Source: an uncultured Pirellulaceae bacterium (GTDB taxonomy: Bacteria > Planctomycetota > Planctomycetia > Pirellulales > Pirellulaceae). From it: 36,105 nt of DNA. The DNA is taken from contig CALDEW010000394.1 of assembly GCA_937942355.1 (NCBI GenBank), positions 1-36,105 of the forward strand, read 5' to 3'. Positions 6,401 through 32,947 of this stretch are shown here, in pieces. How positions within the stretch are numbered: position 1 is the first letter of the stretch; every line of letters starts with the position of its first letter. Under the pieces are notes generated by a model. That model saw nothing but the letters and a program-made list of their open reading frames with translations. It did not search any database and was not told the origin of the DNA. The position numbers and the translations under genes were made by a program.

Positions 6401-9400
6401 CGATGAAGACAACGGGACAATAACTTTTACAATTTCATTAGACCAACCCTCGGTCACCCCGGTTTCAGTCGACTGGGCCACCTCCAACGGTACCGCCACG
6501 GGCCTTGACTTCACCGCGGCTTCGGGAACTGCTAATTTTGCCCCGAGTGTGCAAACGCAAACGGTGACGATCGCAATCACCCAAGACAACATCTTCGAAG
6601 GACCACACTCGTTTGATGTAAACCTTTCCAATGCCAGCGGCGGCACAATTCTTGACGGGCTGGGCGTGGGAACCATCATCGACGACGGCACCGGACCCAA
6701 CGGTAGCGACGATGATCGTCCAATCCTCAGCGTCGACAATGTGACATCGACCGAAACGGTAGACACTCACGCCGTCTTTACTCTCAGCCTATCCAACCCA
6801 AGCATTCAGAACACCGACCTATCTCTGGCGTTGGTCGATGCGACCGCAACCAGCGGTGCCGACTACGGACCGGGACTGGAGTTTTTCGATGGGACCGCTT
6901 GGCAAGCCGTCACCGGCAGCGTCACGATCCCTGCGGGTTCGACCTCGGTTCAAGTCCGCACGCCGATCATTGACGATCCGATCGCCGACAACAACGAAAC
7001 TTATATGCTGGTCGCGACGCGCGTCAACGGAACCACATTCAACACCAGCGCGACCGGCACCGGCACGATCCTTGACGATGCTGACCCAACACTGGTCAGC
7101 ATCACCGGTCCAGCCAGCGTAACCGAAGGCGCTTCAGCCGTTTACAACATCTCGATCGACAACACACCGATCACACCGGTCGCCCTGACCTTCACTTACA
7201 CCGGTACCGCGAACAACGGAACGGACTACACCGGAGTCGCCACGATCACGATTCCCGCAGGCTCCAACACCGGTACGGTCACGATCCCCACGATCGACGA
7301 TACGCTGGGCGAACCGCTTGAGAATTTCACAATCACGATCAATTCTGCCACCGGCGGTTCGTTTGAAGACTTCCAAATTGATCCGACCGACTTCCAAGTC
7401 ACCACCGACATCATTGACGATGACGTGCCGGCGATTGACGTCAACGATGTCATTGTCACCGAAGGCGCAGATCCCTTCGCTGAATTCACAGTTGAACTTA
7501 GTAACCCAACCTTTGAAACGATCGCCTTCAGCATTTCCGCAACCAGCGTATCGGCCAACGGTGAAACGGTCGACTTTGGAATTCTGGGGCTGGATGAACT
7601 GGAAGTCTTCAACGGTACCACCTTCGTGCCGGCCACGTCGGCATCCTTCGCCCCCGGTGACACGACGATCCTCATGCGGACGCCAATTACCGATGACGCG
7701 TTCGCAGAAGGCATCGAAACATTCACCGTCACCGTGACCACAACGGCGGGAACGACTTCCAACCCGTCGGACACCGGAACGGGCACGATCCAAGACGACA
7801 CGTCAGACCCCGAAACGGTTTTGGTTTCGATCGTGGGTCCACCGTCGGTCGTTGAAGGGGCGACCACCACCAATTACACGATCGACTTGACCGATCCAAT
7901 GGGTCAGCCCATCAATGCGGCAGAAGACGTGACGGTTACGTTGGCCTACACCGGAGTCGCCGCCGATGGTTCGGACTACACGGGCCTGGCCACCGTCGTG
8001 ATTCCAGCGGGATTTGATTCAGGCACTTTCACCTTGCCGACAGTGAACGATTCGCTGTACGAAGGCAGTGAAGACATTATTATCACCATCGACAGCGTTA
8101 CCGGTGGCGGATTTGAAGGCATCGCTGCCGATCCGACCGCGGATTCGGTGACGACCTTGATCATCGACACCGCCGACATCCCAACGGTCGCCATCAACGA
8201 CGTGACTTCCGTCGAAGGCACCGATAATTTCGCGCGATTCAACGTCACCCTTTCTAATCTGTCATTCGAAGACATCGACATCAGCTTGGCTTTGGCTGGC
8301 GGCACAGCACTCGGTGGCGGCGTCGACTTTGGCTCCGCGGGTGCCGGCAACCTCCAGTTCTTCGACGGGACAAACTGGGTCGATGCAACCACCGCGACAA
8401 TCCTTGCCGGCGATTCGATTGCTGAATTCCGAGTCCCCATCACCGACGATTTGATCGACGAACCGATCGAAAACTACACACTGACCGTCGATGTTACCGC
8501 GGGAACAACGACCAACATCCAAGTCATCGGCACCGGCACCATCATCGACGACGATCCCGCGCCCGACGTGACGATCGACAACGCGACGGCAAACGAAGGC
8601 GACCCGCTGGTCTTCAATGTGACCCTTTCCAACCCATCCAGCCAAGCGATCGTGTTGGACTTCGCGGCCAGTGATACCACCGCCACCGCCGCGACCGACT
8701 ACAACGCGGCCGCTTTTGAGTTCTCCACCGATGGCGGTGCGACTTGGATGGCTGCCGCCGGCGGTTCCCAAGTCACGATTCCCGCTGGATCGACCGGGAT
8801 TCAGGTGCGCGTGATGACCACCGAAGACCTGACGCTGGAAACAACCGAAACGATGGAACTGGCGATCAACGGAGTCGTCTCTGGTTTGGTCGGCAACACC
8901 ACTGACACCGCCGTGGGAACGATCATCGACGATGATTCTGCGCTGGTCTCGATTGTCGCCAATGACCCGGTCGCTGGCGAACCTTCGGACAACGGCCAGT
9001 TTACCGTTTCGATGACCAACCCTTCGGACACACCCACCGTAATCAACTACACGGTCTCCGGATCAGCCACCAGTGGCGTTGATTTCGCGGCGCTCTCGGG
9101 GACGATCACGCTCCCTGCCGGTGTCACCTCGGACACGATCGAATTATCGGTGATCGACGATACGATTATCGAAGGCATCGAAGACGTAACGATCACGCTT
9201 ACATCCATTGTCTCGGGCGACGCAAATATTTCGATCGACGCCGCCAACAATGCCGACACCGCGACGATCAGTGACGATGATACGGCATCTTGGGCGCTGA
9301 CCGGCGACACCACCGTCAATGAAGGGGCCGATGCGACCTACAATTTAGCGCTCAGCGGCACCCTACAGTCGGGCGAAAGTACTTCGGTCGATTTGGTTCT

Positions 9401-12400
9401 CTCCGATACGACAACCTCGCCGGCGGACTACGCTTCCTTCGACAGCGCCGTCGCCGCTGCGGTCGCGGCTTACGCCGGTCCAGGCACGGTCAGTTGGGAC
9501 GGTGCTGCCATCACATTTACCAGCGATGGCACAGGGCAAATGGCTCCGTTAGTCATCAACGTCATGGCCATCAACGACGCGATCGTCGAAGGCGTCGAGG
9601 AGTACAACGTTTCAATCTCCGGCGCGGCCAGCACAACCGGCATCGCCGTCGGCATCGACGCGCTGAACAATTCGGTCGACACCGAAATCCAGGACACCAT
9701 CGACGCGGTCGGCACGGCGCTTGATAAGGCCAGTTGGTCCATCACCGGCGCGACCTCCGTCAACGAAGCCAGCACGACCAATTACACAATCACCATCGAC
9801 GCCACACTGCAAGCGCTTGAGGTTGCCGAAGTCGATATTTCTCTGACGAACATCGACACTAGCAATGGCGACATCACCGGAATCGGCGCCGCCGTGGTCG
9901 CTGCGGTTGCCAACTACAACGCCAGCGGTCAACCGGGAACATTGGCGTTTAACGGCACCACATTAAGCTTCACCAGTGACGGCACCGGTCCGATGGGCGA
10001 CCTGATCGTTCAAATCTCCGCCAACGCCGACGGCTTCCTCGAAGGACCCGAAGACTACTCGATCCAGCTGACCAACCCCAACAGCACCACCGGCGCGTGC
10101 GTTGTATTGGACGTCAACAATTCGGTGACAACTACGATTAACCCAGACGCGACCGCCGCACAGTGGTCCATCGGAGTCGACAACAGCGGCGATGAAGGGT
10201 CGACCGTTTCCTACGGCGTTGAATTGACGCAAGCCTTTGGAGCCGGTGATTCGGCGGCGGTTGATTTGGCGCTGAACGATGTTGATACCAATTCAGCCGA
10301 CTATGGCAACTTTGTGACGGCAGTCAACGATGCGATTGCAGCCTACACCGGGCCTGGAACCCTAACCTTCGACGGAACGACGCTGACTTACACCGCCACC
10401 AACGATGGCGACATGATGACGGGCCTGACGATCGACCTCGATCTCACTGACGACCCGATCGTCGAAGGCGTCGAAACCTTCACCGTCGACCTGAGCAACC
10501 CGGATGGCCCCACTGGTGTCAACGTTGCCGTTTCAACGACTGACGACAGTGTAACAACAACGATCATTGACACGATCGGCGCCGGTGGATCTCCTGACAT
10601 CGCGACTTGGTCGGTCACCGGACCTGCCGCGGGCGACGAAGGCACCAACGCGCAGTACACGGTCGAGCTTGACGGAGCCCTTGGCGCTGGAGAATCCGTT
10701 TCGGTTGTTTTAAGTTTGACCGATGTCGACACAACCAGCGGCGACTACGCCTCGATTATTGCCGCTGCCACCGCAGCGGCGGCCTCGAACCCTGATGTAA
10801 CGTTTGATCCAATCACCGGGACGTTCACTTATACCGCGCCATCCGATGGCGCGCTGATGGCCGATCTGGTGATCGATCTTGGACTGGCCACCGATGCGAT
10901 TGCCGAAGGCCCGGAAGATTTTGAGATCGCTTTAAGCGCCGCGGCTTCCACAACCGGTGCGGCAGTTACCATCGACGGCGCAGCCGATATGGTCACGACA
11001 ACGATCAACGACCTGACCGCTCCACTAGAATGGGCAATCACCGGCCCTCTCAACGCCGACGAAGGCGCGACAGCCCAGTACACCGTTACGCTCGGCGGCG
11101 CCCTTGGTGCTGGTGAAACGGCCAGCGTTGTTATTGGGCTGACTGATTTGACAACCAGCCCCAATGACCGCGCAGACATCAACGCAGCGATCACGTTAGC
11201 CATTAGTGGTAATCCCAACCTTGCCTACGATCTCGTTTCTGGGACGCTGACGTTCACATCGCCAACCGACGGCGCGACGATGCCGCCGGTGCTGATCGAT
11301 CTAGGCATCGTCAACGACGCATTTGTAGAAGGATCCGAGAACTTCTCGATTGGGCTCTCCAGTGCCTCGTCGACGACGGGTGCCGTGGCCACTATTTCGA
11401 CCACCGACAATTTGGTGACAACGGAGATCTTTGACACGCAAGACGCGGGGCTGGGTCCTGATCAAGCCGTCTGGTCGATCACCGGTGACGTGGTGGTGGC
11501 CGAAGGTGGGACGGCTCAGTACACGGTGGCGTTGGCCGGGCAGTTTGGCGCTGGCGAAGTCGCCACCGTTGAATTGGGCCAAGCCAACGTCGATACAGCT
11601 AATAGCGACTATCTGGACTTGATCGCCGCGGTAAATAGCGCCGTAGCAGCGTACTCGGGACCGGGCACCGTCACTTTTGACGGGACAACGATCACCTTCA
11701 CCGCCGCCAATGACGGCGATGTCATGTCGGACTTAGTGATCGACTTAGGAGCCGTCGATGACTTGATTGTCGAAGGTGATGAAGACTACACCGTTTCGAT
11801 TCTCAATCCAGGATCCACTACCGGCGGCACGGTCTTCACGGACAACGCATCAAGAATCGTCACCACGACGATCACCGACAATGACGCCGCGACGTGGAGC
11901 ATCACCGGCGATGCTACTGTTAGTGAAGGTGCCACGGCGCAGTACACCGTCGCGCTGGATGGCCTATTTGGAGCCGGCGAAGTTGCCACCGTTGAAATTG
12001 GACGCACGAACGTTGACACCACCAACGCCGATTCAGCTGATCTGATCGCAGCGGTCAACAGCGCCGTCGCGGCCTACATGGGGCCGGGTTCGGTTGCCTT
12101 TGACGGGACGACCATCACCTTCACCGCCGCAATGGATGGCGACGTCATGTCAGATTTGGTGATCGACCTTGGTGCTGTTGATGACACAATCGTCGAAGGC
12201 GATGAAGATTACACCGTGTCGATCTTCAACCCCGGTTCAACTACTGGAGGCCAGGTCCTTAACGACAACACGGCGCGGATCGTCACCACAACCATTACCG
12301 ACAACGATGCCGCAGCGTGGCAGTTGACCGGTGACACGACGGTCAACGAAGGTGCCGATGCAAATTACGAACTCGTTTTGACAGCAGCGCTACAGTCGGG

Positions 12401-15400
12401 TGAAAGTTCAACCGTTGATCTTTCGATTACAGACGTCACCACCAATCCAGCGGATTACGCTTCGTTCAATGCAGCGGTTGCCGCAGCGGTGGCTGCTTAC
12501 AGTGGGCCGGGCACGGTCAGCTGGGATGGCGCTGCGATCACGTTTACCAGTGATGGGACCGGTCCGATGGCGGCGCTGATGATCGACCTAAGCGCCATCA
12601 ATGACGCCGTCGTCGAAGGTACCGAACAATACAATGTTTCGATCGCCAATCCGGTCACCACGACAGGCATTGCGGTCAGCATCGACGCGGCCAATAACTC
12701 GGTCGATACCGAAATCCAAGACACCGTTGACGCTGCCGGGACAGCTTTGGACAAAGCGCTTTGGTCGATCACCGGAGCAACGTCTGTTGATGAAGCCAAC
12801 ACCACCGACTACACCGTCACCATCGACGCGGTACTGCAATCTGGAGAAACGGCTTTGGTCGATCTCACGTTGGCAAATATTGACACGACCGCCGGTGATA
12901 TCACAGCGCTCAACACCGCCGTCAATGCCGCGGTCGCCACTTACAACGCCAGCGGCCAACCGGGATCGGTCACTTGGAACGGTACGACGCTGACCTTCAC
13001 CAGTGATGGCACCGGACCGATGGGCGATTTGGTGATTCAGATCACGGCCACCTCCGACGGGTTCTTGGAGGCGGCTGAAGATTACTCGTTAACGCTGACC
13101 AATCCAACCAGCACCACCGGCGCTTGCCTTGGTTTGGATCCAAACAGTTCCGTCACCACGACAATCAACCCCAGCACAACGGTGGCTCAATGGTCGATCG
13201 GCGTGGACAATCAAAACGATGAAGGCGGCGCGGTGCAGTACACGGTCAGTCTCTCAGAGACCTTTGGTGCCGGCGAATCAGCCACCGTTGACATCGGACT
13301 CAATGACATCGATACAAATTCGACCGACTACGCCAACTTCGTAGGGCAAGTCAGCGCGGCGGTTGCTGGTTACACTGGCCCGGGGACGCTGACCTTTGAT
13401 GGTACCACGTTAACCTTCACTGCCAATGCTGATGGAGATGGGATGACGGACTTGGTCATCCTGCTGGGGCTGAACAACGACGCGATCGTCGAAGGCGTTG
13501 AAACATTCACCGTCGATTTGACCAATCCAACGGGGCCGACGGGCGTTGCCGTTTCGATTGCACCAGCTCAGGACAGCGTGACGACCACGATCAACGACAC
13601 GCAAAACGTTGGCGGCGCTCCAGACGTGGCGACGTGGTCCATCATCGGTCCAACATCGGGCAACGAAGGCACCACCGTTACTTACCGCGTGGGGCTCAAC
13701 GGTGCGATCGGAGTAGGTGAATCCATTTCGGTCGACCTAAATCTGAATGACTTGACCACCAACAGCAGCGACTATGCTTCGATTGTGGCGGCCATTACCG
13801 CTGCCGCGGCGGCGGATCCGGACGTCACGTTCAACGCCGCCACCGGAACGTTGACTTATACCGCGCCGACCGATGGTGCGTCGTTGACACCGCTGACGAT
13901 CAACTTAGGACTCAGCACCGACGCGCTTTCAGAAGGCAACGAAGACTTCCAACTGGAGTTGACCAATCCAGCCTCCTCCTCCGGCGCCGCGGTTGTCATC
14001 AATCCAACCCTATCTGATGTCGTGACAACAATCATCGACCAAACAGCAGCGACCCAGTGGAGCATCACCGGTCCAGCGTTTGAGGACGAAGGCGGCTCCG
14101 CGGCCTATGTAGTAGAGCTCAGCGGATCCTTTGGAGCTGGTGAAACGGCGACTGTCGCGATTGGATTGACTGACATCTCGACCAATGGAACTGACTTGGG
14201 ATCGTTAAACGGCGCGATCAATGCCGCGATCGCTGGCAATCCGAACTTGAGCTTCAACCCGGCCACCGGTGAATTGACTTACACCGCCCCAGCCGATGGC
14301 GCGACGATGCCGGCGCTGACGGTTGTGTTACCCGTGCTTAACGACGCTTTAGTCGAGGGAACCGAACAGTACACAATCGCGCTCAGCAGCCCCAGTTCGA
14401 CCACCGGTGCCGCCGTCGCCGTTTCCGCCACCGACAACAGCGTGACCACGACGATCAACGATACTCAAAATGTCGGAGGCGCAGCTGATTCAGCCCAATG
14501 GTCAATCACCGGCAGCACGACCGTCGATGAAGGTGCAAACGCTACCTACACCGTCGCTCTTGGGGGCGCCTTTGGCGCGGGGGAATCGGTTTCAGTGGAT
14601 GTTGGTTTGACGAACGTCGACACCAACTCCGGCGACTACGCACCGTTTGTGGCGGCGGTCAACGCTGCGGTGGCGGCTTACGCGGGTCCTGGCGCTGTTG
14701 CGTTTGACGGCACGACGCTGACATTCACTGCCGCGGTCGACGGCGATGTGATGGATGACTTGGTTGTCGATCTATTGGCCATTGATGATGCCTTGATCGA
14801 AGGCCCCGAAGACCTAACCGTTGCTTTATCTGGTGCCGCGACGACGACTGGAGCCGCTGTTTCGATCAGCGCTGCCGAGAACAGCGTCACCACGACCATC
14901 ATCGACAACGATACCGCTACTTGGAGCATCACGGGCGACGCGACGGTCGGCGAAGGCGCGACCGCTCAGTACACCGTCGTGCTTGACGGGCAGCTGGGGG
15001 CAGGTGAAGTCGCCACCGTCGAAATTGGAAACGCCAACGTCGACACGGCAAACACTGACTATTTGGATTTAGTCGCGGCCGTCAACAGCGCCGTGGCGGC
15101 TTATACCGGACCGGGCACCGTTACTTTCGACGGCACGACGATCACCTTCACCGCCGCCATGGATGGCGATGTGATGTCCGACCTGATTATCAATTTTGGC
15201 ACCGTGGATGATTTGCTGGCCGAAGGCGATGAAGACTACACCGTTTCTATTTTCAACCCAGGCTCAACGACCGGCGGTATTGTGCTTACCGACAACACGT
15301 CGCGCATCGTCACCACCACCATCATCGACAACGATGTTACTCAGTGGAGCATCACCGGTGACACCACCGTAAACGAAGGGGCCGATGCCAAGTACGTCGT

Positions 15401-18400
15401 CGAATTGATCGGCGCGCTGCAATCAGGCGAAACGGCCACCATTGAATTGGCGATCGGCAACACCGACACCACTTCGGCGGACTACGCGAACTTCGTCAAT
15501 GCAGTCAACACAGCGATCAGCAATTACGCTGGTCCGGGTGCGCTTTCCTTCGACGGAACCACGCTGACATTTACCAGCGACGGTAATCCAATGGGCGATT
15601 TGTGTATCGAGCTAACCACCGTTGATGATGCCTTGACCGAAGGTGATGAAGCCTTCACGGTTTCGATTGCCAACCCGGGATCAACCACCGGAAGCGCAAT
15701 CGCGTCCACCGGTCCAACCACCGTTGCGACAACGATCGTTGACAACGACGTGGTGTCATGGAGTATCACGGGAGACACGTCGGTCGTCGAAGGAGACGAT
15801 GCCAAATATGTAATTGAGTTGGCGGGAACATTGCAGGACGGTGAAACCGCGACAATCGACCTGAACATCGGCGACACCAGCACCACGTCCGCGGACTACG
15901 CCAATTTTGTTTCGGCGGTGAACACGGCGATCGCTAACTACACCGGAACCGGTACGCTGGCCTTCGACGGGACGACGTTAACATTCACCAGCGCCGGCGA
16001 CCCGATGCAAGATCTTTGTATCGAACTGACGGCCGTTGACGATGTGATCACCGAAGGCAGCGAAGACTATACCGTGGGCTTGAATAATCCAGGATCAACC
16101 ACCGGAAGCAGCGTCACGGGGCTGGCCAGTCCTGTGATGACGACCATCATCGACAACGATGCGGTGCAGTGGTACCTCATGGGCGATGTAACGGTCGACG
16201 AAGGTGGCACGGCGCAGTACATGGTCGGACTCAGCGGCATTCTCCAATCGGGTGAGAATTCGAGCGTGTTATTGACCTTGGCGGACCTTGAAACCAACTC
16301 CACCGACTACGACAACTTTGTCACCGCCGTCCAAACGGCGGTCGCAGCTCGATCAGATTTGGCGTTTGATGCCGCCACCGGAACGTTGACCGTCACCGGA
16401 ACAGGCGCTCCGATGGCTGACTTGATCATCGACCTCGATGCAATCGACGACACGTTGATCGAGGGCCCCGAACGATATCAAGTGCTGCTGTCCAGTTCGG
16501 CCAGCATGACGGGGTCGACAACCGGCATTGATCCGGCCAAAAGTATCGTCACCACGACGATTCGCGACACTGTCGGAGATGGTGGCGCATTGGCAACCGC
16601 CATATGGTCGATTGGCGTCGATCAAACTGTCGCTGAAGGCAACACCGCGGCGTACGTATTAGATTTAGCCGGTGATTTGCAGGCTGGGGAAATCGTCACC
16701 GTCGACGTGAAGTTGTCGGACGTGGACACCATTGCGACCGATTACGGAAGTTTGGATTCGGCGATCACGCTGGCGGTAGCAACCTACACCGGACCGGGCA
16801 GCGTTGCTTGGGATGGTACAACGTTGACCTTCACCAGCGATGGCACCGGACCGATGGATGGCCTGCCGCTGAACTTGGCAACGATCAACGACAGCTTTGC
16901 CGAGGGCGCTGAAGATTTCTTGATCACGCTGTGCAACTCGAATTCCCTGACGGGCGCGGCCAACGCAATCGACGTGGCAGCGGATGATGTTGTGACCACA
17001 ATCGACGATACGTTCGGGCCAGGTGCAGACGATGTGACGTGGACGATCGTTGGCGACAACGGTGTCGATGAAGGCGGCACCGCCACTTACACCGTTGCGA
17101 TCACCAACGCGCTGGCGGCAGGTGACGATGCGACGGTTGAACTTTCGATCGGCGACATTGACACCAGCAGCGCTGACTATGCCGGATTCAACGCAGCGGT
17201 TATTGCCGCGGTGGCAAACTACAACTCGGGAAGTAACCCCGGCAGCGTCAGTTGGGACGGCGCTACGCTGACCTTCACCGCAGCGGTCGATGGCGACACG
17301 TTAACCGGATTAGTGATTGACCTTGCATCGGTTGATGATGCATTTTTGGAAGGCCCCGAGATCTACGATGTAACGCTGGCCAATTCGGGCAGCAACACAG
17401 GCATCGTGGTATTCATTGATCCCGTCCTCAATACCGTTCTGACCACCATCAACGACACCGACGGTGACGGTGGACCGGCAGAACCCGGTGGCGAGTGGTC
17501 GATCACCGGCGTGACTGCGGTCACCGAAGGCGATCCGATCACCTTCACCATTGGTTTGACAGGCAATCTTCAATCAGGCGAACGGGCGACGGTGCAGTTT
17601 GGTGCCGGCGACATCGAAACCAACGGTGGTGACTACTCCAATGTGAGCGCTTCGGTGGGCGCAGCCGTGGTGGCCTATAACAACGATCCAGCCAATCCGG
17701 GAACGCTCAGTTGGGACGGGACATTGCTGACCTTTGTCAGTGACGGCACCGGACCGATGAATAATTTGGACGTGACCTTCGCTTCGGTCGACGATTTGTT
17801 GGTCGAAGGCGACGAGCGTTTGAATTTAGCGCTTTCCAATGCTTCGAGTACAACCGGTTTGAGCCCAACGATTTCGCCAACAGACAATCTGGTCACGACT
17901 ACGATCGTCGACAACGATAACGCTCAGTGGTCCATTGCGGGGCCGGTCGTAACGGGCGAAGGTTCGACGGCAGACTATACCGTTTCGCTGGCTGGCGTTT
18001 TCCAAGCCGGAGAAGTCGTTTCGGTCGATCTTGGTTTGACAGACATCGACACGACCAGCGGCGACTACGGTAGCTTGTCCGCCGCGATCAGCGCTGCGGT
18101 CACATCCAACTCGGACGTGGTCTTTGACGCCGCCACGGGGACACTGACCTATACCGCGCCAGCCGACGGTGCGACGATGGCAGATTTGATTATCCAGCTG
18201 CCCATCACGTCCGACGGCATCAGCGAAGCCCCCGAAGACTACGTGATCGCGCTGAGCAATCCCTCCAGCAGCAGCGGACTTTCGCCGACCATTGATCCGG
18301 CCGCCGACGATGTGTTGACCACCATCAACGGATCACCCGTCACCAATCCCGATGATTATTTCACCAACATTGACACACCCTTTGTGGGTAACGTGCTGAC

Positions 18401-20501
18401 CAACGATTCGGATCCTGATGGGGATGTCTTGATGGTCGTTGAGGTTGATGGCCAGCCCATCGGAGCGCCGATCGTGACCGATTGTGGCACCGTTGAGATG
18501 AATCCCAATGGTTCGTTTACCTTCACACCGTTTCCCGGATTCTCGGGCGTGGATACGTTTGAGTACACCGTTGTTGATGAATTTGGCAACCAGCAAACCG
18601 AAACCGTCACCATCACGATCAACGAAGCGGCCATCGGATCGGCCAAGGACGTTTCTGATGCGGTGCCTAATGGAGACAACTTTGATGTGACGTTCACCAT
18701 CGTCGTCGGGAACCTTGGCAATGTCGCCTTGGATAACTTGACGGTGTATGACGACGTCACTGCCAGATTCGGTCCGGCTTTGGTTGCCGTCTCAACGCCA
18801 GCGATTTTAAGCACCGAAGGCCTCGGCACTCCACCGACAATCAATCCGGCTTGGACCGGCGACACTTCACAGAATTTAATCACCGGCGGTATGCTGCTGC
18901 CGGGGGCATCGTTCCAAATAACATTTACGGTCACCATCGACCCCGATGCTGCCGGCCCGGCTCAATCGCTTGGCAATCAAGCCACCGTCTCGGGGCAAGG
19001 CATCAATCCCGATGGTACGGTGATGACTGATAGCAATGGTGATCCCGTCGTCGCCACTGACGACAGCGACAGCGGCACCAATCCCTCGGGAGAGAACGGC
19101 GACGAAGGTTCGGTTGACGGTATTGAGGGCAACGATGTTACCGACATTGTGATCGCGGACTTGGGCGTGGCCAAAGCCATTGCGGGCCAACCTGATCTGC
19201 TACCCAACGGAAATTATCTGGTGACTTTCAGTGTCGTCGTCGAGAACACGGGAACCGTTGATCTGGCCAGCCTCAGTTTGCAAGAGGATCTTGCGAATCA
19301 GTTCGGCGGGGCACTGGTGGGCATCAGCGGTCTGCAATTGGCTGATCCACCGTCGAATTCCGGAAGCAACGTCGCTGTCAACGCGCCTTTTGATGGAGCC
19401 ACCACGACTGAACTGCTGGACACCGCCAATAGCGTTTTAGCGGTGGGCGATTCCTTCACACTGGAATTCAGTGTTGAACTTGATCCGACCAACGTGGCCG
19501 GCAGCGTAGGCAATCAGATTTCGGCAACCGCTGGAGCCATCGATAGCAGCGGCAACGAGCTGCTGGATTCCTCAGGCAATCCGGTCGTCGCGAGTGATCT
19601 CAGCGACAGCGGCACCGATCCGGGCTCAACCAATGCGGGATCACCGGATGACACCGGTTCGAGTTCGGACATCACCTCGTTCACGCCGCCAGATGTTCCT
19701 TTAGGTGAGATTTCGGGCACGGTGTTCGTTGATGACAACAACAACGGCATCTTCGATCCGGGCGAAAATGGTATCGCCGGCGTGGAGATCAACTTGACCG
19801 GCACCGATGTTTATGGAAACGCGGTCGACCTGACCGTGCTGACTGACGCGGCAGGGAATTACTCGTTTGAGAATCTCGTTGCAGGCGTCTACGACGTGGT
19901 CGAAATTCAACCGGCGCAGTTCAACGACGGCATCGATAGTTCCAACGCTGCGGCATCCGTTGGCGACGATCGGTTCAATGCCATCGGCCTTGGTTTCGGC
20001 GAAAACCTGTTCAACAACAATTTTGGCGAAAGGGCATTTGGAACTTCTGGCAATCCAGCGCGTTTCCCAGCACTGCTACCCTTTGGTAACGAGGGGCTCA
20101 GCAACCGCATCAGCGACTTCTTGGGTAGCCCGGGCCCTATTTATTCCGGCGTTCCCATTGGCAGCAACTCTCATCCTTTGTCCCTTCGTAGTGGCCGCCC
20201 GATAACCGGTGGCTATGTGGCGGAGTTCGCTGTAGCTCCACCGGTCGAACTTTGTGTCCCTTGCGATGAACCGGCTGTGATCGCAGAAGTTGACAGCTGC
20301 GAGCAAGAGGTTGCTGAGGAGACCTACATCACCGAAGAACTTTCTCCAGACGTCGTCGAGTGCCCGGCTTGCGTTGAAGAAACGACCACGTGCGACACCT
20401 GCGAAGAATGTTCTAACTGCTGCGGATGTTGCGACGACGCAACGTCGGTTCAAAGACACGGAGTGCTATTTAGGTTGATGAACTGGCTGAGAAATCGGTA
20501 G
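435..20501 (+). CDS. Giant multidomain surface/secreted protein (6688 aa): LEPR/LEDRVLFDG-type N-terminus, DUF4347-like domain, cadherin/Ig-like repeats, Calx-beta-like repeats, DUF11-like and SdrD_B-like domains, Cys-rich C-terminus
   Basis: Single uninterrupted ORF. N-term 'FERLEDRVLFDG'; 'LIVIDSNVQDSDVLLQSLIESNP...VHILSHGNAGNVQLGN...LLFYGCELA' resembles DUF4347; 'NDSDPESDPLTVNT...GTFTYIPNSGFSGPDSFDYEISDGNGG' are cadherin-like/VCBS-type repeats; many 'xV.EG....Y.V.LS...' Calx-beta units; 'GTVFVDDNNNGIFDPGENGIAGVEINLTG...GNYSFENLVAGVYDV' is an SdrD_B-like domain. Confidence 0.93.
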   Translation: MSFSDKHYLSFFERLEDRVLFDGVPDATFISMPAEHAAPTAPQASPLNQSQAPSPTELIVIDSNVQDSDVLLQSLIESNPSTAFTIHILDVSTDGVQQITDFLSISNSQFEAVHILSHGNAGNVQLGNTQLNTDNVSHYVDELASWSSSLTQDADLLFYGCELAFNADGQSLIQTVSAVTGADVAASIDVTGDSAQSADWHLEYVTGHVETQALSSHNWSGTLAIEATDGAVTIENAENSAAGTITLTNNGDPEVVTVINTPTRVGQMLERVWQFNETADTGRATYVFDVSGIAGINATIASEFGLIVSDQPDLADGPNTTTLVASGYDAANGLVYFHQVDLNSGDYFGLATEVVQDNYSVFPTATGLEDNSIDLGLTLSPSLTQGGQLQDIIATDAGFRAGNAGTTTTDFFIPAGTTGIRITGYSTRDIGTAASDLYNDDYQFLNVSIDLNTETSNGYIGHIIDQGPSRSDQFGFSDAPLGSPILTGGGTIVGDANDNINPTFTIVDGVLMIEENHQLQTAYHVEYLTNATSSAEFIRTSSAVLQNNDQSLATLTVPANADFLVVNITDAAAGSNSRIEYKGNSRVYIDLATLQASGVVAAEIGETDTRVVAYGFEDYDVSSVTNGSILSGAGTIVGDTTGLANVINDNQIYIDASGNLVIDRNNSFAGTFNSLITVEYYERRPFGSSAEQLGEATDYGFWNSDPSNPTSTLEFDIPDNATLGILNLTQNGTNTNDTNENSGAAFAVIDLANGTSSGSIYFVRAGSRVDLVGWDATPFGTAFFDDPNSISNHTTINQFVDPFAGTATFNLINGGTTLELAVNSDSGGTQSFLDYFAGGQVEWFGAAPFEVSGSVAGGSFSQGTLNPVTGNFELTIAEASMGLSYIPPTHVSGTVPVDIMLRIGDETETTAVTIQAVIDPIDFSMVPDACGDEDTDIPITANITPTFVDQDGSETLTSQVLSNIPIGHTLTDGTNTFVSSAGSQSVDITAWNASSITYRANPNESGTFTVTMDVDWQDVGGGVTDTDSMQTTFDVVVKPINDPPVAVDDFYTVLGNTTLTTTVANGVLNNDSDPESDPLTVNTTPLSGPSNGTLTLNSDGTFTYIPNSGFSGPDSFDYEISDGNGGTTTATAFIDVSDPVTGPLDAMDDAVTTNEETLINIAVMANDDLPTTGAFNIQSTTPPSNGAITVLPNGTIDYTPNPDFFGTDTFTYTLADASGRTSTATVTVTVLNVQDPPVANADSGSTPEDTTLPSINILSNDSDPDNDPLTVTMAIAANGTVVINADGTIDYTPNPGFNGTDTVNYTISDGNGGFASSTVLINVVPVADPPTSADNAVTTVEDISYTFVASDFPFADQDAGDSLVTVRIDSLPADGQLLVNGNPATAGQIVSLTEINNGNLIFVPDPDDFGNNYTTFDFSVSDGILFQTTPNTMTVNVTPVQDPPIATDNAITVNEDSTANQLGLATPTDVDGDTLTATVTGLPTQGTVFLANGVTVVNNGDMLTMAQLTSLVYDAPTVFTVAGAGSFTYDVTDGTDTDSGQVDITIVPVNDPPVVDLNGPAAGEDYADTFTEGGPPVALADATVAVTDQDDIRVPFVKIDFDASTLLDAGDEFLEIGGVDFQLDAATSSTTTVTIGTTDYDVTFTAATARFDIVRTDGLEMTLAQAEVVLRTTAYRNDSVLPTVGDRDFDICTNDGDADSNTATTVISVVRDSEPAEWSITGSATVIDGNSATYTVSLSNPLRGGETASVDLGLMDIDTTSADYGPLSTAINSAVAAYSGPGTLAFNGTTLTFTSDGTGAMTPLSITLPTTPDGAYEGDEDFAINLSNPASTTGETITIDAAADEVVTTIIDNTPAPTVMITGGSAIEGNPVRFRIDLDVASFEDIVLDLSVASGSATAGADFETTNFEYFDGTVWLPATAGTQVTLPAGTTALNVRVDSVQETLVEPDETFTMSATVISGTVTNASDTGTGTIINDDVANISIDDVTVDEDNGTITFTISLDQPSVTPVSVDWATSNGTATGLDFTAASGTANFAPSVQTQTVTIAITQDNIFEGPHSFDVNLSNASGGTILDGLGVGTIIDDGTGPNGSDDDRPILSVDNVTSTETVDTHAVFTLSLSNPSIQNTDLSLALVDATATSGADYGPGLEFFDGTAWQAVTGSVTIPAGSTSVQVRTPIIDDPIADNNETYMLVATRVNGTTFNTSATGTGTILDDADPTLVSITGPASVTEGASAVYNISIDNTPITPVALTFTYTGTANNGTDYTGVATITIPAGSNTGTVTIPTIDDTLGEPLENFTITINSATGGSFEDFQIDPTDFQVTTDIIDDDVPAIDVNDVIVTEGADPFAEFTVELSNPTFETIAFSISATSVSANGETVDFGILGLDELEVFNGTTFVPATSASFAPGDTTILMRTPITDDAFAEGIETFTVTVTTTAGTTSNPSDTGTGTIQDDTSDPETVLVSIVGPPSVVEGATTTNYTIDLTDPMGQPINAAEDVTVTLAYTGVAADGSDYTGLATVVIPAGFDSGTFTLPTVNDSLYEGSEDIIITIDSVTGGGFEGIAADPTADSVTTLIIDTADIPTVAINDVTSVEGTDNFARFNVTLSNLSFEDIDISLALAGGTALGGGVDFGSAGAGNLQFFDGTNWVDATTATILAGDSIAEFRVPITDDLIDEPIENYTLTVDVTAGTTTNIQVIGTGTIIDDDPAPDVTIDNATANEGDPLVFNVTLSNPSSQAIVLDFAASDTTATAATDYNAAAFEFSTDGGATWMAAAGGSQVTIPAGSTGIQVRVMTTEDLTLETTETMELAINGVVSGLVGNTTDTAVGTIIDDDSALVSIVANDPVAGEPSDNGQFTVSMTNPSDTPTVINYTVSGSATSGVDFAALSGTITLPAGVTSDTIELSVIDDTIIEGIEDVTITLTSIVSGDANISIDAANNADTATISDDDTASWALTGDTTVNEGADATYNLALSGTLQSGESTSVDLVLSDTTTSPADYASFDSAVAAAVAAYAGPGTVSWDGAAITFTSDGTGQMAPLVINVMAINDAIVEGVEEYNVSISGAASTTGIAVGIDALNNSVDTEIQDTIDAVGTALDKASWSITGATSVNEASTTNYTITIDATLQALEVAEVDISLTNIDTSNGDITGIGAAVVAAVANYNASGQPGTLAFNGTTLSFTSDGTGPMGDLIVQISANADGFLEGPEDYSIQLTNPNSTTGACVVLDVNNSVTTTINPDATAAQWSIGVDNSGDEGSTVSYGVELTQAFGAGDSAAVDLALNDVDTNSADYGNFVTAVNDAIAAYTGPGTLTFDGTTLTYTATNDGDMMTGLTIDLDLTDDPIVEGVETFTVDLSNPDGPTGVNVAVSTTDDSVTTTIIDTIGAGGSPDIATWSVTGPAAGDEGTNAQYTVELDGALGAGESVSVVLSLTDVDTTSGDYASIIAAATAAAASNPDVTFDPITGTFTYTAPSDGALMADLVIDLGLATDAIAEGPEDFEIALSAAASTTGAAVTIDGAADMVTTTINDLTAPLEWAITGPLNADEGATAQYTVTLGGALGAGETASVVIGLTDLTTSPNDRADINAAITLAISGNPNLAYDLVSGTLTFTSPTDGATMPPVLIDLGIVNDAFVEGSENFSIGLSSASSTTGAVATISTTDNLVTTEIFDTQDAGLGPDQAVWSITGDVVVAEGGTAQYTVALAGQFGAGEVATVELGQANVDTANSDYLDLIAAVNSAVAAYSGPGTVTFDGTTITFTAANDGDVMSDLVIDLGAVDDLIVEGDEDYTVSILNPGSTTGGTVFTDNASRIVTTTITDNDAATWSITGDATVSEGATAQYTVALDGLFGAGEVATVEIGRTNVDTTNADSADLIAAVNSAVAAYMGPGSVAFDGTTITFTAAMDGDVMSDLVIDLGAVDDTIVEGDEDYTVSIFNPGSTTGGQVLNDNTARIVTTTITDNDAAAWQLTGDTTVNEGADANYELVLTAALQSGESSTVDLSITDVTTNPADYASFNAAVAAAVAAYSGPGTVSWDGAAITFTSDGTGPMAALMIDLSAINDAVVEGTEQYNVSIANPVTTTGIAVSIDAANNSVDTEIQDTVDAAGTALDKALWSITGATSVDEANTTDYTVTIDAVLQSGETALVDLTLANIDTTAGDITALNTAVNAAVATYNASGQPGSVTWNGTTLTFTSDGTGPMGDLVIQITATSDGFLEAAEDYSLTLTNPTSTTGACLGLDPNSSVTTTINPSTTVAQWSIGVDNQNDEGGAVQYTVSLSETFGAGESATVDIGLNDIDTNSTDYANFVGQVSAAVAGYTGPGTLTFDGTTLTFTANADGDGMTDLVILLGLNNDAIVEGVETFTVDLTNPTGPTGVAVSIAPAQDSVTTTINDTQNVGGAPDVATWSIIGPTSGNEGTTVTYRVGLNGAIGVGESISVDLNLNDLTTNSSDYASIVAAITAAAAADPDVTFNAATGTLTYTAPTDGASLTPLTINLGLSTDALSEGNEDFQLELTNPASSSGAAVVINPTLSDVVTTIIDQTAATQWSITGPAFEDEGGSAAYVVELSGSFGAGETATVAIGLTDISTNGTDLGSLNGAINAAIAGNPNLSFNPATGELTYTAPADGATMPALTVVLPVLNDALVEGTEQYTIALSSPSSTTGAAVAVSATDNSVTTTINDTQNVGGAADSAQWSITGSTTVDEGANATYTVALGGAFGAGESVSVDVGLTNVDTNSGDYAPFVAAVNAAVAAYAGPGAVAFDGTTLTFTAAVDGDVMDDLVVDLLAIDDALIEGPEDLTVALSGAATTTGAAVSISAAENSVTTTIIDNDTATWSITGDATVGEGATAQYTVVLDGQLGAGEVATVEIGNANVDTANTDYLDLVAAVNSAVAAYTGPGTVTFDGTTITFTAAMDGDVMSDLIINFGTVDDLLAEGDEDYTVSIFNPGSTTGGIVLTDNTSRIVTTTIIDNDVTQWSITGDTTVNEGADAKYVVELIGALQSGETATIELAIGNTDTTSADYANFVNAVNTAISNYAGPGALSFDGTTLTFTSDGNPMGDLCIELTTVDDALTEGDEAFTVSIANPGSTTGSAIASTGPTTVATTIVDNDVVSWSITGDTSVVEGDDAKYVIELAGTLQDGETATIDLNIGDTSTTSADYANFVSAVNTAIANYTGTGTLAFDGTTLTFTSAGDPMQDLCIELTAVDDVITEGSEDYTVGLNNPGSTTGSSVTGLASPVMTTIIDNDAVQWYLMGDVTVDEGGTAQYMVGLSGILQSGENSSVLLTLADLETNSTDYDNFVTAVQTAVAARSDLAFDAATGTLTVTGTGAPMADLIIDLDAIDDTLIEGPERYQVLLSSSASMTGSTTGIDPAKSIVTTTIRDTVGDGGALATAIWSIGVDQTVAEGNTAAYVLDLAGDLQAGEIVTVDVKLSDVDTIATDYGSLDSAITLAVATYTGPGSVAWDGTTLTFTSDGTGPMDGLPLNLATINDSFAEGAEDFLITLCNSNSLTGAANAIDVAADDVVTTIDDTFGPGADDVTWTIVGDNGVDEGGTATYTVAITNALAAGDDATVELSIGDIDTSSADYAGFNAAVIAAVANYNSGSNPGSVSWDGATLTFTAAVDGDTLTGLVIDLASVDDAFLEGPEIYDVTLANSGSNTGIVVFIDPVLNTVLTTINDTDGDGGPAEPGGEWSITGVTAVTEGDPITFTIGLTGNLQSGERATVQFGAGDIETNGGDYSNVSASVGAAVVAYNNDPANPGTLSWDGTLLTFVSDGTGPMNNLDVTFASVDDLLVEGDERLNLALSNASSTTGLSPTISPTDNLVTTTIVDNDNAQWSIAGPVVTGEGSTADYTVSLAGVFQAGEVVSVDLGLTDIDTTSGDYGSLSAAISAAVTSNSDVVFDAATGTLTYTAPADGATMADLIIQLPITSDGISEAPEDYVIALSNPSSSSGLSPTIDPAADDVLTTINGSPVTNPDDYFTNIDTPFVGNVLTNDSDPDGDVLMVVEVDGQPIGAPIVTDCGTVEMNPNGSFTFTPFPGFSGVDTFEYTVVDEFGNQQTETVTITINEAAIGSAKDVSDAVPNGDNFDVTFTIVVGNLGNVALDNLTVYDDVTARFGPALVAVSTPAILSTEGLGTPPTINPAWTGDTSQNLITGGMLLPGASFQITFTVTIDPDAAGPAQSLGNQATVSGQGINPDGTVMTDSNGDPVVATDDSDSGTNPSGENGDEGSVDGIEGNDVTDIVIADLGVAKAIAGQPDLLPNGNYLVTFSVVVENTGTVDLASLSLQEDLANQFGGALVGISGLQLADPPSNSGSNVAVNAPFDGATTTELLDTANSVLAVGDSFTLEFSVELDPTNVAGSVGNQISATAGAIDSSGNELLDSSGNPVVASDLSDSGTDPGSTNAGSPDDTGSSSDITSFTPPDVPLGEISGTVFVDDNNNGIFDPGENGIAGVEINLTGTDVYGNAVDLTVLTDAAGNYSFENLVAGVYDVVEIQPAQFNDGIDSSNAAASVGDDRFNAIGLGFGENLFNNNFGERAFGTSGNPARFPALLPFGNEGLSNRISDFLGSPGPIYSGVPIGSNSHPLSLRSGRPITGGYVAEFAVAPPVELCVPCDEPAVIAEVDSCEQEVAEETYITEELSPDVVECPACVEETTTCDTCEECSNCCGCCDDATSVQRHGVLFRLMNWLRNR
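9291..12317 (+). repeat. Seven-module super-repeat, copy 1 (modules of 444, 429, 444, 423, 441, 423 and 423 bp)
   Basis: Module-start Trp codons (W of W[SA][IL].G) at 9291, 9735, 10164, 10608, 11031, 11472 and 11895; next block begins at 12318. Confidence 0.88.
12318..15344 (+). repeat. Seven-module super-repeat, copy 2 (same module lengths, same order)
   Basis: Module-start Trp codons at 12318, 12762, 13191, 13635, 14058, 14499 and 14922, each exactly 3027 bp after the corresponding copy-1 codon. Paired modules share signature text, e.g. TEIQDT(I/V)DA(V/A)GTALDKA, YNASGQPG and QWSIGVDN. Confidence 0.88.
15345..18330 (+). repeat. Third run of seven related modules, not in register with copies 1 and 2 (approximate end)
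   Basis: Module-start Trp codons at 15345, 15759, 16170, 16605, 17040, 17496 and 17928; spacing 414, 411, 435, 435, 456 and 432 bp; same consensus, different order of subtypes. Confidence 0.75.
20253..20432 (+). other. Cys-rich C-terminal tail of the giant protein
   Basis: CVPC...DSC...ECPAC...TTCDTCEECSNCCGCC: 12 Cys in 60 residues, followed by a basic tail RHGVLFRLMNWLRNR. Confidence 0.85.
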
Positions 20502-20873: not shown

Positions 20874-21623
20874 ATGCCAACAGCAGTCATTACAGGGGGC
20901 GGATCTGGAATCGGTCAAGCGATCGCGATGCGGTTAGCAGCTGATGGATTTCATGCTGTCCTATTAGAATTCAGCGACGAAAACGGCGCAGCCACCGTCG
21001 GTTTGATCACCGAAGCCGGCGGCAGCGCTGAACACATTAAGACCGACGTTGGTTCGACCGAATCGGTGAAGGCCGCTTTTGATCAGCTCGATGAGGTAAA
21101 CGTGTTGGTCAACAACGCCGGAGTCGCCTCGATCGGGAACTTGGAAAACTGCTCGCCCGAGGAACTTGACCGAATCTATGCAATCAACGTCAAAGGCGTT
21201 TACCACTGTTTGTATTTCGCGGTCCCCAAAATGGTTGCTGCCGGTGGCGGAGCGATTCTTAATTTAGCTTCGATCGCCAGCAAGGTCGGGATCGCGGATC
21301 GGTTTGCTTATTCGATGTCCAAAGGTGCCGTCCTGACGATGACGCTTTCGGTGGCAAGAGACTACGTCGACAAAGGCATCCGCGCCAACTGCATTTGCCC
21401 GGCGCGTGTCCGCACGCCTTTCGTTGACGGCTATCTGGCCAACAATTTCAGCGACGAAGAACGCCCCGAAATGGAAGCCAAACTATCCGCGGCTCAACCG
21501 ATTGGCCGGATGGGAAAGCCCGATGAAATCGCGGAGTTGGCCGCGTTTCTTTGTTCAGACAAATCACAATTCATCACCGGCAGTGCCTACGACATCGACG
21601 GCGGATTTACGCTGCTGCGATAG
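20874..21623 (+). CDS. SDR-family NAD(P)-dependent oxidoreductase; probable 2-keto-3-deoxy-L-fuconate dehydrogenase by context
   Basis: TGGGSGIG nucleotide-binding motif, NNAG, YSMSK catalytic motif, C-terminal ITGSAYDIDGG; upstream 'aggaaataag' as possible SD; next to FAH and fuconate-dehydratase-like genes. Confidence 0.85.
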   Translation: MPTAVITGGGSGIGQAIAMRLAADGFHAVLLEFSDENGAATVGLITEAGGSAEHIKTDVGSTESVKAAFDQLDEVNVLVNNAGVASIGNLENCSPEELDRIYAINVKGVYHCLYFAVPKMVAAGGGAILNLASIASKVGIADRFAYSMSKGAVLTMTLSVARDYVDKGIRANCICPARVRTPFVDGYLANNFSDEERPEMEAKLSAAQPIGRMGKPDEIAELAAFLCSDKSQFITGSAYDIDGGFTLLR

Positions 21624-21704
21624 CGGGTTGATTCGTTCAGCCGGTTCGCGCTCTCGCCTAAACCAATTCGAACTTTTAATCAAAAACCTAACAAACAATA
21701 TCCG

Positions 21705-22562
21705 ATGAAACTTACCCGCTACTACGACGACAATAAAATCATCCCTGCCGTTTTCTCTGACGAAACGACCATCGTGAACTGTGCTTCCTTTGGCGAAGAC
21801 TGGAATGAAGCCTTCTTCGACAACGATGGTCTAGCACGTTTGGGAAAATTCTTAGAGGAGAAGCAATCTGATCTTCCGACTGTGAAGATGGACAACGTGC
21901 GACTGGCACCGGCGATTGCACGTCCGTCAAAGATCGTATGCGTTGGTTTAAATTACGCCAAACACGCAGCAGAATCGGGCATGAAAGCTCCAAGTGAACC
22001 CGTGCTGTTCTTCAAAGCCACAAGCGCTTGGGCGGCGCCTTTTGACGACATGGTCATCCCGCGCGATTCGGACAAATCGGATTGGGAAGTCGAACTGGCG
22101 GTCGTGATCGGAAAAAAAGCCAAGTACGTTTCCAAAGAAAACGCGATGGACTACGTCGCAGGTTACGGCGTACATAACGATTACTCAGAGCGAGCCTGGC
22201 AGATTGAGAAAGAAGGCCAGTGGTGCAAAGGTAAATCAGCCGACACTTATGCTCCTTTCGGGCCCTTCATGGCAACGACTGATGAAATCACCAACCCCAA
22301 CAACCTGCACCTGTGGCTCAAACGCAACGGCGAGACCATTCAGGATTCCAACACCAACGATTTCATCTTTGACGTGCAGACGGTTGTTAGTTACATCTCA
22401 AATTTCATGACGCTGCTTCCCGGTGACGTGATCTCCACGGGAACACCTGCCGGTGTTGGCTTTGGCATGGATCCCCAACAATACCTGGTTGACGGCGACG
22501 TAATTGAACTGGGCATTGAGGGTTTGGGTGTGCAAAAACAAACAGCCGTCAAAGAGAAGTAG
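21705..22562 (+). CDS. Fumarylacetoacetate hydrolase (FAH) family protein; probable 2,4-diketo-3-deoxy-L-fuconate hydrolase by context
   Basis: IVCVGLNYAKHAAESG, 'EPVLFFKATSA', 'DWEVELAVVIGK', 'GYGVHNDYSER', 'PGDVISTGTPAGVGFG' are FAH-family signatures. Confidence 0.85.
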   Translation: MKLTRYYDDNKIIPAVFSDETTIVNCASFGEDWNEAFFDNDGLARLGKFLEEKQSDLPTVKMDNVRLAPAIARPSKIVCVGLNYAKHAAESGMKAPSEPVLFFKATSAWAAPFDDMVIPRDSDKSDWEVELAVVIGKKAKYVSKENAMDYVAGYGVHNDYSERAWQIEKEGQWCKGKSADTYAPFGPFMATTDEITNPNNLHLWLKRNGETIQDSNTNDFIFDVQTVVSYISNFMTLLPGDVISTGTPAGVGFGMDPQQYLVDGDVIELGIEGLGVQKQTAVKEK

Positions 22563-22566
22563 ATTG

Positions 22567-22631
22567 TAGGACTGGTTCCAACCGGCCGTGCGTTAACCTT
22601 TACCTCAAACGGCCGGTGGGAACCGGCCCTA
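22567..22631. repeat. REP-like intergenic inverted repeat
   Basis: Left arm TAGGACTGGTTCCAACCGGCCGT (22567-22589) and right arm ACGGCCGGTGGGAACCGGCCCTA (22609-22631) pair at 20 of 23 positions. Confidence 0.75.
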
Positions 22632-22666
22632 CGTACTCAGAACTTCAACTTTCAAACCGACCTACG

Positions 22667-24007
22667 ATGTCAAAATCAGCAATTAAGATTACTTCGGCCA
22701 ACGTAATCGACCTACGTGTGCCCACTTCGGACAACATGCTGGGCTCGGATCCGTTTCACAAGGAACCGGATTACTCTTCAGCGGTTCTACACCTGGAAAC
22801 CGACAACGGCCTGCGCGGTGTTTCGGTCGTGTTTACTGTTGGAGCAGGAACCGATTGGATCTGTCATGGTATCGAAGACCTTTGCCAGTTGATTATTGGA
22901 TCCTCCGTGCAAGAGTTCGCCGAGGCACCGATTCGTTTGTACCGGCGGTTGATTGACCATCACCAGTTGCGTTGGTTGCATGACGGAGTTTTTCGCATGG
23001 CTGCGGGCGCGGTGATCAACGCGATGTGGGACCTGTGGGCGAAGTCCGAAGGGAAACCATTGTGGAAATTGCTGGTTGATCTGGAACCAGAGTTTGTCGC
23101 CGACTGTATCGATTGGCGCAACATCGGCGACGCACTGACACGCGATGAAGCGATCGAAATCCTCTCCGCTTGCCGCCCCAACGTCGAAAAGCGCGAAAGT
23201 GAAATGACCCCCGTTGGACCCAAGGCTTATTGCACCGCGGGATGGTTGGGGTTGAGCGATGAACAGATTCTGGCGACGATTCGAAAACTGGAAGAGTCCG
23301 GTTTTGATTCGTTCAAACTGAAGGTGGGACGTGATTCGGATGACGATGTCCGCCGGATCAAGTTCATGCGAGAAGCGATCGGCAATGACCTCAATCTGAT
23401 GGTTGACGCGAACCAGTTCTGGGGTGTGGAAGAAGCTAAAAAACACGTTGAAAGATATGTGCCTTACAACCTGAAGTGGGTGGAAGAGCCGATTGCAAGG
23501 GATGACGTGCTGGGTTACGTGGAACTATCGGAGACGTTCCCTGACGCCAGTTTCAATTTTGCTTGTGGCGAACAAGGTGCCTCGCCGGTGATCTTCAAGC
23601 AGTTGCTAAAGAGCGGCGCGATCGGATATTGCCAGATCGACGCGGTGCGCGTCGCGGGCGTGAACGATGTAATGGCGATCATTTTAATGGCTGCGAAATA
23701 CAAGGTTCCCGTTTGTCCTCACGGTGGTGGAATCGCGCTATGCAACATGATCCAGCACTACGGTATGTGGGATCAGATCGCCGTTTCGGGACACTCGGAT
23801 ACTCAGATGATTGAGTACATTGATTTCCTTCAGGAATCCGTCGAACATCCGGTTCAAGTCAAAGACGGATGCTACGTTACTCCGACGGCGCCGGGCTGGG
23901 GGCTTGAGTTTGTCCCTGAGTTCCTTGAGAAGCATACGTTTCCCGACGGAGAAGTCTGGCACGATCGCGACCCCAAGAAAAAGGGCGCCGCGTACGAAGT
24001 GGAGTAA
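22667..24007 (+). CDS. Enolase-superfamily dehydratase, probable L-fuconate dehydratase
   Basis: 'SFKLKVGRD' (KxK), 'LMVDANQFW', 'KWVEEPIARDD', 'CPHGGGIALCNMIQHYGMWD...MIEYIDFLQESVEHPV' resemble the fuconate dehydratase branch of the mandelate racemase group. Start taken at ATG 22667 (MSKSAIKITS) instead of the ORF-track start at 22616, which lies inside the inverted repeat. Confidence 0.82.
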   Translation: MSKSAIKITSANVIDLRVPTSDNMLGSDPFHKEPDYSSAVLHLETDNGLRGVSVVFTVGAGTDWICHGIEDLCQLIIGSSVQEFAEAPIRLYRRLIDHHQLRWLHDGVFRMAAGAVINAMWDLWAKSEGKPLWKLLVDLEPEFVADCIDWRNIGDALTRDEAIEILSACRPNVEKRESEMTPVGPKAYCTAGWLGLSDEQILATIRKLEESGFDSFKLKVGRDSDDDVRRIKFMREAIGNDLNLMVDANQFWGVEEAKKHVERYVPYNLKWVEEPIARDDVLGYVELSETFPDASFNFACGEQGASPVIFKQLLKSGAIGYCQIDAVRVAGVNDVMAIILMAAKYKVPVCPHGGGIALCNMIQHYGMWDQIAVSGHSDTQMIEYIDFLQESVEHPVQVKDGCYVTPTAPGWGLEFVPEFLEKHTFPDGEVWHDRDPKKKGAAYEVE

Positions 24008-31600: not shown

Positions 31601-31683
31601 TAGTTCAAATTGTTTCTTCAATTAAGTTTAGAGAGTTATAAGTGTGATGAGAGTCGTGGAACAAAATAGCATCGTCTGCGAAA

Positions 31684-32110: not shown

Positions 32111-32947
32111 ATGAATACAGACTCAATCGTGCACCTAGAAGATCTTGTTCCCGGCTACCCTGTGCTGACGATCAAACATCCAAAATGTAATGGGCAAATA
32201 GCGTTGCATGGGGCGCATGTGATGTCGTGGAGCCCCGAGGGGGCCGAAGAAGTTCTCTACCTGAGCCCCGACGCGGTATACCGTGAAGGGAAGGCAATCC
32301 GCGGAGGGATTCCTCTCTGTTGGCCTTGGTTCAATGCACACCCCAGCAACCCCGATCTGCCCTCGCATGGTCTTGTACGGGCCCAATTTTGGGAGCTCGA
32401 GTCAACCGACGTTACCGATGATGGCGTCGTAGTAAAACTTCGTTGCGACAGTGAACAGTGGTCTGCTGTGGCGACCATCAGCATGGGAAGCTCGTTGGAG
32501 GTCGCACTCCAATCCACCAACCTTGCTGACGATCCCTTATTGGTTTCCGGTGCGCTGCACAGTTATTTCTCCGTAGGAGAAGTCCAAAAAATCACGATCA
32601 AGGGTTTGGAGAACACGAACTATCTGGACACCGTTGGCGATCACACGGTCCGCCATCAGGACGGAGTGATTCATATCGATCAGGAAGTGGACCGGTACTA
32701 CGACAGCAGCGGATCGGTGCGACTGGAAGATCCGTTGAAAAACCGCACGATTCTGATCGAGAAGAAAGCCAGTCCTTCAACGGTCGTCTGGAATCCGTGG
32801 ATTGAAAAAGCTGCGGCGCTGAGCGACCTTCCCAACGATGGTTATCAGAACTTCGTCTGCATCGAGGCCGCGATCACCAACGACCACGCGGTCGCTGTGG
32901 GCAAAGGGGAAAGTCACTGTTTCTCTACACGAATCTCTGTGAAGTGA
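32111..32947 (+). CDS. Aldose 1-epimerase / D-hexose-6-phosphate mutarotase-like protein
   Basis: 'ISLHGAHV'-type segment (ALHGAHVMSWSPEGAEEVLYLSP), 'IRGGIPLCWPWF', 'SHGLVRAQFWELES', 'NPWIEKAAALSDLPNDGYQNFVCIEAA' match the YeaD-like family. Confidence 0.87.
   Translation: MNTDSIVHLEDLVPGYPVLTIKHPKCNGQIALHGAHVMSWSPEGAEEVLYLSPDAVYREGKAIRGGIPLCWPWFNAHPSNPDLPSHGLVRAQFWELESTDVTDDGVVVKLRCDSEQWSAVATISMGSSLEVALQSTNLADDPLLVSGALHSYFSVGEVQKITIKGLENTNYLDTVGDHTVRHQDGVIHIDQEVDRYYDSSGSVRLEDPLKNRTILIEKKASPSTVVWNPWIEKAAALSDLPNDGYQNFVCIEAAITNDHAVAVGKGESHCFSTRISVK

Follow-up and report, generated by a model that had tools for sequence, protein, structure and literature searches.

Probable ancient duplication of a six-module block in a giant planctomycete protein of Calx-beta-type domains

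A giant gene of a marine planctomycete, an uncultured Pirellulaceae bacterium, contains two successive blocks of modules that repeat each other at a distance of exactly 3027 bp, which raises the question of whether selection has held a unit of seven domains at a fixed length or spacing. The window, that is, the whole stretch of 36,105 nucleotides that we analyzed, is contig C394 of a draft assembly (G000; 4.6 Mb in 559 contigs, 82.6% complete), and the host genus is very probably Mariniblastus, that of Mariniblastus fucicola. The gene is a single open reading frame on the plus strand (435 to 20501) encoding 6,688 amino acids, with the domain order N-terminal LEDRVLFDG motif, DUF4347, cadherin/Big_9-type repeats, Calx-beta-type modules, SdrD_B-like domain, and acidic, Cys-rich tail. 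A LEPR-XLL match fell below the cut-off, and a surface location is suggested by the N-terminal motif and the domain content. Literature searches on Calx-beta domains with Planctomycetes and on DUF4347 yielded nothing on this protein.

The sequence-only reading had listed seven module-start Trp codons in the first block and a partner for each in the second, and this proved exact, all 14 codons lying in frame where they had been placed and each partner at precisely +3027. The irregular module lengths also recur in the same order (148, 143, 148, 141, 147, 141, and 141 codons). In an ungapped comparison, positions 9291 to 12317 and 12318 to 15344 aligned over 1009 codons at 66.4% nucleotide and 66.4% amino acid identity, and all other offsets within 60 bp gave 33% identity or less. 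The best ungapped diagonal (9254 to 12556; 3303 bp) reached slightly past the earlier limits of the first block. Between the copies, 346 codons are synonymously different, and differences number 274, 192, and 552 at codon positions 1, 2, and 3, in line with the many synonymous changes reported before. The proposal that an old segmental duplication took place and that length has stayed the same overall is supported. Tandem Repeats Finder, with its period limit of 500, missed the 3027-bp repeat, and the junctions harbored no shared exact stretch longer than 14 bp and no remaining long exact DNA repeats.

Module types were called by tree and best match, all modules being on the plus strand. Block copy 1 consists of six modules, A to F (9291 to 11894; 868 amino acids, a length conserved in orthologues), followed by an F-type core module (module 7; 11895 to 12317). 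Copy 2 consists of modules a to f (12318 to 14921), again six modules of 868 amino acids in total, with 64% amino acid identity to copy 1 and no gaps; its last module (module 13, f; 14499 to 14921) is the register partner of module 6, and a second F-type module follows (module 14; 14922 to 15344). Two short core modules (k; 15345 to 16169; 138 and 137 amino acids), a type amplified to 5 to 11 copies in other species, and a conserved C-terminal block of five modules, J to N (16170 to 18344), make up the third run of seven modules that had been described as out of register and that is indeed present at 15345 to 18344. We rejected the idea that this run repeats the block a third time, since the +3027 diagonal breaks off halfway through module 15 and the order k-k-J-K-L-M-N has orthologues of its own.

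In a tree of the 21 modules, the register partners 1-8, 2-9, 3-10, and 5-12 were sisters with good support, and 4-11 were sisters with moderate support, module 21 competing for this position. The pairing by subtype read from the sequence thus holds for these five pairs, moderately so for 4-11, and fails for 6-13. Modules 6, 7, and 14 form one clade (support 100/100) and are 80 to 82% identical (80 to 81% between module 14 and the other two), against 35 to 60% for most modules in the identity matrix; module 13 lies outside this clade, with 60% identity to module 6. For one pair of the seven, this is the outcome that had been named beforehand as speaking against the proposal. On whether module 7 or module 6 is the sister of module 14, the trees disagree. 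Because orthologues carry six modules, A to F, and because module 6 is not the sister of module 13, the duplicated unit does not clearly appear to be one of seven modules; an original unit of seven (A to F plus one F) is possible.

The block was matched in 8 of the 28 genomes of the genus, G000 included, and a scan of named genomes returned the record of the sister genome G012 (uncultured Pirellulaceae bacterium; CAKZVF010000247.1) and one weak contig labelled Rhizobiaceae. The architecture ABCDEF-F-abcdef-F-kk-JKLMN of G000 corresponds to ABCDEF-kkFF-abcdef-F-kk-JKLMN in G012. We found ABCDEF, a contig break, and k-KLMN in G013; ABCDEF-k5-JKLM-k, a contig break, and k-JKLMN in the draft assembly G015; ABCDEF-k5-JKLM-k6-JKLMN in G025, a single contig of 6,570,840 bp; ABCDEF-k11-KLN in G001; and k8-JKLMN in the draft assembly G004. 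The unit conserved between species is thus six modules, A to F (866 to 868 amino acids), which four other species show once. G004, near G000 by J-M (79%; L037/L038), lacks the A-F block entirely. The J-M part occurs twice in G025 (L033/L034) and in G015 (L030/L039), 64 to 69% identical and without gaps; in this gene, then, another block was duplicated independently, before the split of G015 and G025. The eleven core modules of G001 (L035/L036, contig C44) form one within-genome clade, which suggests that the core alone expanded recently or evolved in concert. G001 also encodes a second giant protein with related modules (contig C166, L040; open frame of 8,472 amino acids), which is a paralogue.

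A comparison of G000 with G012 bears directly on the spacing. Copies 1 and 2 of G012 are 92.2% and 90.3% identical to those of G000, but their spacing is 1426 amino acids (ten modules) and not the 1009 of G000. Along almost the whole length, the closest G012 partner of G000 module 6 is module 06 and that of module 7 is module 10, so that three whole modules differ between the two species. The difference is clean and sits between modules 6 and 7, the modules that precede the G012 orthologue of module 7 being k, k, and F. Because the 06/07/14 group excludes G012 module 09 (86.6/87, moderate support), the change was more likely a deletion in the G000 lineage, in which case the 3027-bp register would be a derived state.

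These data speak against the suggestion that the length or spacing of a seven-domain unit is under selection, an idea we tested against G012 and rejected. In its fullest form, this explanation holds that a titin-like super-repeat of seven modules is kept in register by selection on its total length or spacing and serves as a ruler or a repeating binding platform. The absence of any gap in 1009 codons at 66% identity favors it, as does the fact that modules 7 and 14 are both of F type and of equal length. The missing indels are, however, not special to the duplicate. The A-F block measures 866 amino acids in G015 and G001, 867 in G025, and 868 in G013 and in each copy of G000 and G012; copy 1 of G000 aligns with G013 without a gap at 71% identity and with G001 with four gap events at 53.5% identity. 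Orthologous A-F blocks at 65 to 71% identity differ by 0 to 2 single-residue gaps, and over all A-F blocks 0 to 4 gap events separate the block from copy 1. The J-M part (586 amino acids in the seven copies compared) is likewise gap-free at 60 to 91% identity. Among orthologues, gap events per 100 differences amount to 0 to 1.5 in the N-terminal 3,000 residues and 2.5 to 6.2 in the C-terminal tail, and the pooled orthologous A-F blocks gave about 0.57 against copy 1 of G000. At this rate, 1.8 gap events are expected for the 311 differences between the copies, and by our own arithmetic the probability of finding none is about 0.17, so that their absence is unremarkable. Length thus depends on the fold and position of the individual module, with no seven-module ruler behind it, and being duplicated makes no visible difference. 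Together with the ten-module spacing in G012, the failure of modules 6 and 13 to pair, and the other species, in which at most one A-F block is seen, this makes a ruler very improbable.

The age of the duplication was assessed against G013. In a tree of the concatenated block, copy 1 and G013 group together to the exclusion of copy 2 (support 98.8/98), and the duplication is older than the divergence from G013: an approximately unbiased (AU) test rejected a duplication after this split (P = 0.005) and accepted both a duplication between the split from G015 and G025 and this one (P = 0.74) and a duplication preceding the two splits (P = 0.32). One could nevertheless suppose that the duplication is younger and that copy 2 looks old through faster evolution. 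Module 1 (with its partner 8) does favor recent common ancestry, rejecting (P < 0.01) both topologies that separate copy 2 from copy 1 and G013 and place it as far out as G015/G025 or further; the proportion of synonymous differences (pS) between the copies (0.68) is not above that between copy 1 and G013 (0.73); and only block 1 was seen in G013, whose contig ends directly after it, so that loss and an assembly gap are alike possible. But besides the concatenated test, modules 3, 4, 5, and 6 each reject recent ancestry (P = 0.0045, 0.025, 0.020, and 0.045; about 140 columns per module, P values uncorrected for multiple testing), and the copies diverge alike between G000 and G012, so that no clearly higher present-day rate is seen for copy 2. 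We consider a younger duplication unlikely. Still less credible, to the point of being nearly negligible, is an artefact of metagenome-bin assembly. The fragmented and incomplete state of G000 would allow for one, but copies that are 34% divergent cannot arise from misjoining a single locus, and G012, a separate assembly of another species, harbors both copies in the same order with orthologous divergence.

The simplest reading of the conflicting module histories would be local gene conversion at module A (1/8) before the split of G000 and G012, because module 1 favors recent ancestry while modules 3 to 6 reject it. The dN/dS ratio (NG86) was about 0.16 between the copies and 0.07 to 0.10 between orthologues, values that are only indicative with dS near saturation (1.8), for which reason we dropped the ratio as a measure of age; they point to purifying selection on both copies.

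An AlphaFold model of module 14, with the 21 window modules as alignment, had a pLDDT of 88, and all eight PDB matches with an E value of 0.001 or less in a fold search were NCX/CALX calcium-binding domains or the exchanger (TM score, 0.50 to 0.57). The predicted fold is an immunoglobulin-like beta-sandwich as in these domains. Pfam PF03160 matched 4 of the 21 modules at this E value (best, 5.2e-05), with strong matches also to the whole region and to the module immediately preceding the block. Across 147 modules, D97, E101, and E104 are present in all, D46 is present in 146, and E11 is present in 139, with E or D in nearly all. The segment around D97/E101/E104 aligns with NCX1 DDDIFEEDENF, the sole and weak NCX1 stretch in a PDB sequence search (E value, 0.38); these acidic residues presumably correspond to calcium ligands of NCX1. 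The modules are like Calx-beta domains (PF03160; NCX/CALX CBD1 2dpk, 3gin, 3ead) in their predicted fold and invariant acidic D-x-x-x-E-x-x-E residues, but differ in carrying an inserted helix (residues 50 to 60), in their length of about 137 to 152 amino acids, and in the low number of Pfam matches. From model and sequence, we predict that they bind calcium.

We consider it quite likely that the locus reflects an ancient tandem segmental duplication of the six-module A-F block inside a giant secreted stalk protein of Calx-beta-type domains. The gene has stable flanks (A-F on the N-terminal and J-N on the C-terminal side) around an F/k core whose module count varies between species, and unequal homologous recombination between modules is the likely mechanism suggested by the architecture. 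By this route, A-F would have been copied in the lineage of G000 and G012 and J-M in that of G015 and G025 (M. fucicola), with core modules gained or lost elsewhere. Today's register would result from the block duplication and the later three-module difference from G012. Both copies remained under purifying selection, apparently with later local homogenization at module A, and modules 3 to 6 retain an older history. The protein may be a stalk, either secreted or attached to the surface, whose domains are stiffened by calcium and which grows and shrinks through recombination in its core.

A basic-aromatic C-terminal motif (FLKRxxxWLxR or similar; 20450 to 20498 here) is shared by all complete orthologues seen and could be a sorting signal. 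The G+C content of the giant gene is mostly 55 to 59%, against mostly 45 to 54% in the downstream genes. These include genes for an SDR, an FAA hydrolase, an enolase-superfamily enzyme, an alpha-L-fucosidase, and an aldose epimerase (20874 to 24007, 30017 to 31621, and 32111 to 32947), which look like a set for L-fucose use, fitting an alga-associated planctomycete.

Several known systems resemble this protein in part. The D-zone super-repeats of the titin A-band consist of seven Ig/FnIII domains in six copies matched to the thick filament; as here, whole blocks recur with their subtypes in the same order, domains at corresponding positions are usually the most similar, and growth is by block duplication (PMC10665226). 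In our protein, however, there are only two copies, the domains are not homologous to those of titin, the spacing changes in the sister species, and a position is most like its counterpart in the next block for positions 1 to 3 and 5, moderately for 4, and not for 6, the trees being split on 7. Periscope Proteins are monomeric bacterial surface stalks of varying domain number, a change proposed to occur by homologous recombination, and are defined by highly identical repeats (PMC9704523); the modules described here are mostly far less alike, modules 6, 7, and 14 excepted, and the variation in domain number seen here is between species, with one genome for each. With adhesins of the LapA/BapA type, the protein shares its giant, repetitive, putative surface character, LapA-domain matches upstream of the duplicated block (Pfam scan), and a weak BapA-type match, but Pfam and NCBIfam scans found no RTX nonapeptide repeats or type I secretion signal at its C terminus, which is different, and its N-terminal motif is of planctomycete type.

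The duplication is real and ordinary in kind, probably an instance of repeat-protein growth by recombination that brings ideas from titin and the Periscope Proteins to a planctomycete, without fixed spacing or near-identical repeats. More tentatively, and with some doubt on our side, giant planctomycete stalks might share a fixed plan in which two constrained, nearly indel-free flanks (A-F and J-N), occasionally copied, serve as binding or assembly segments around a freely expanding core that acts as an adjustable spacer. The seven architectures in one genus represent a natural series for the growth of a giant stalk, in which block duplication, core expansion, deletion, and local homogenization can be separated module by module. 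Overall, perfect register within a single genome does not by itself indicate that the spacing of two copies is under selection, a reading that a sister species here directly contradicts.
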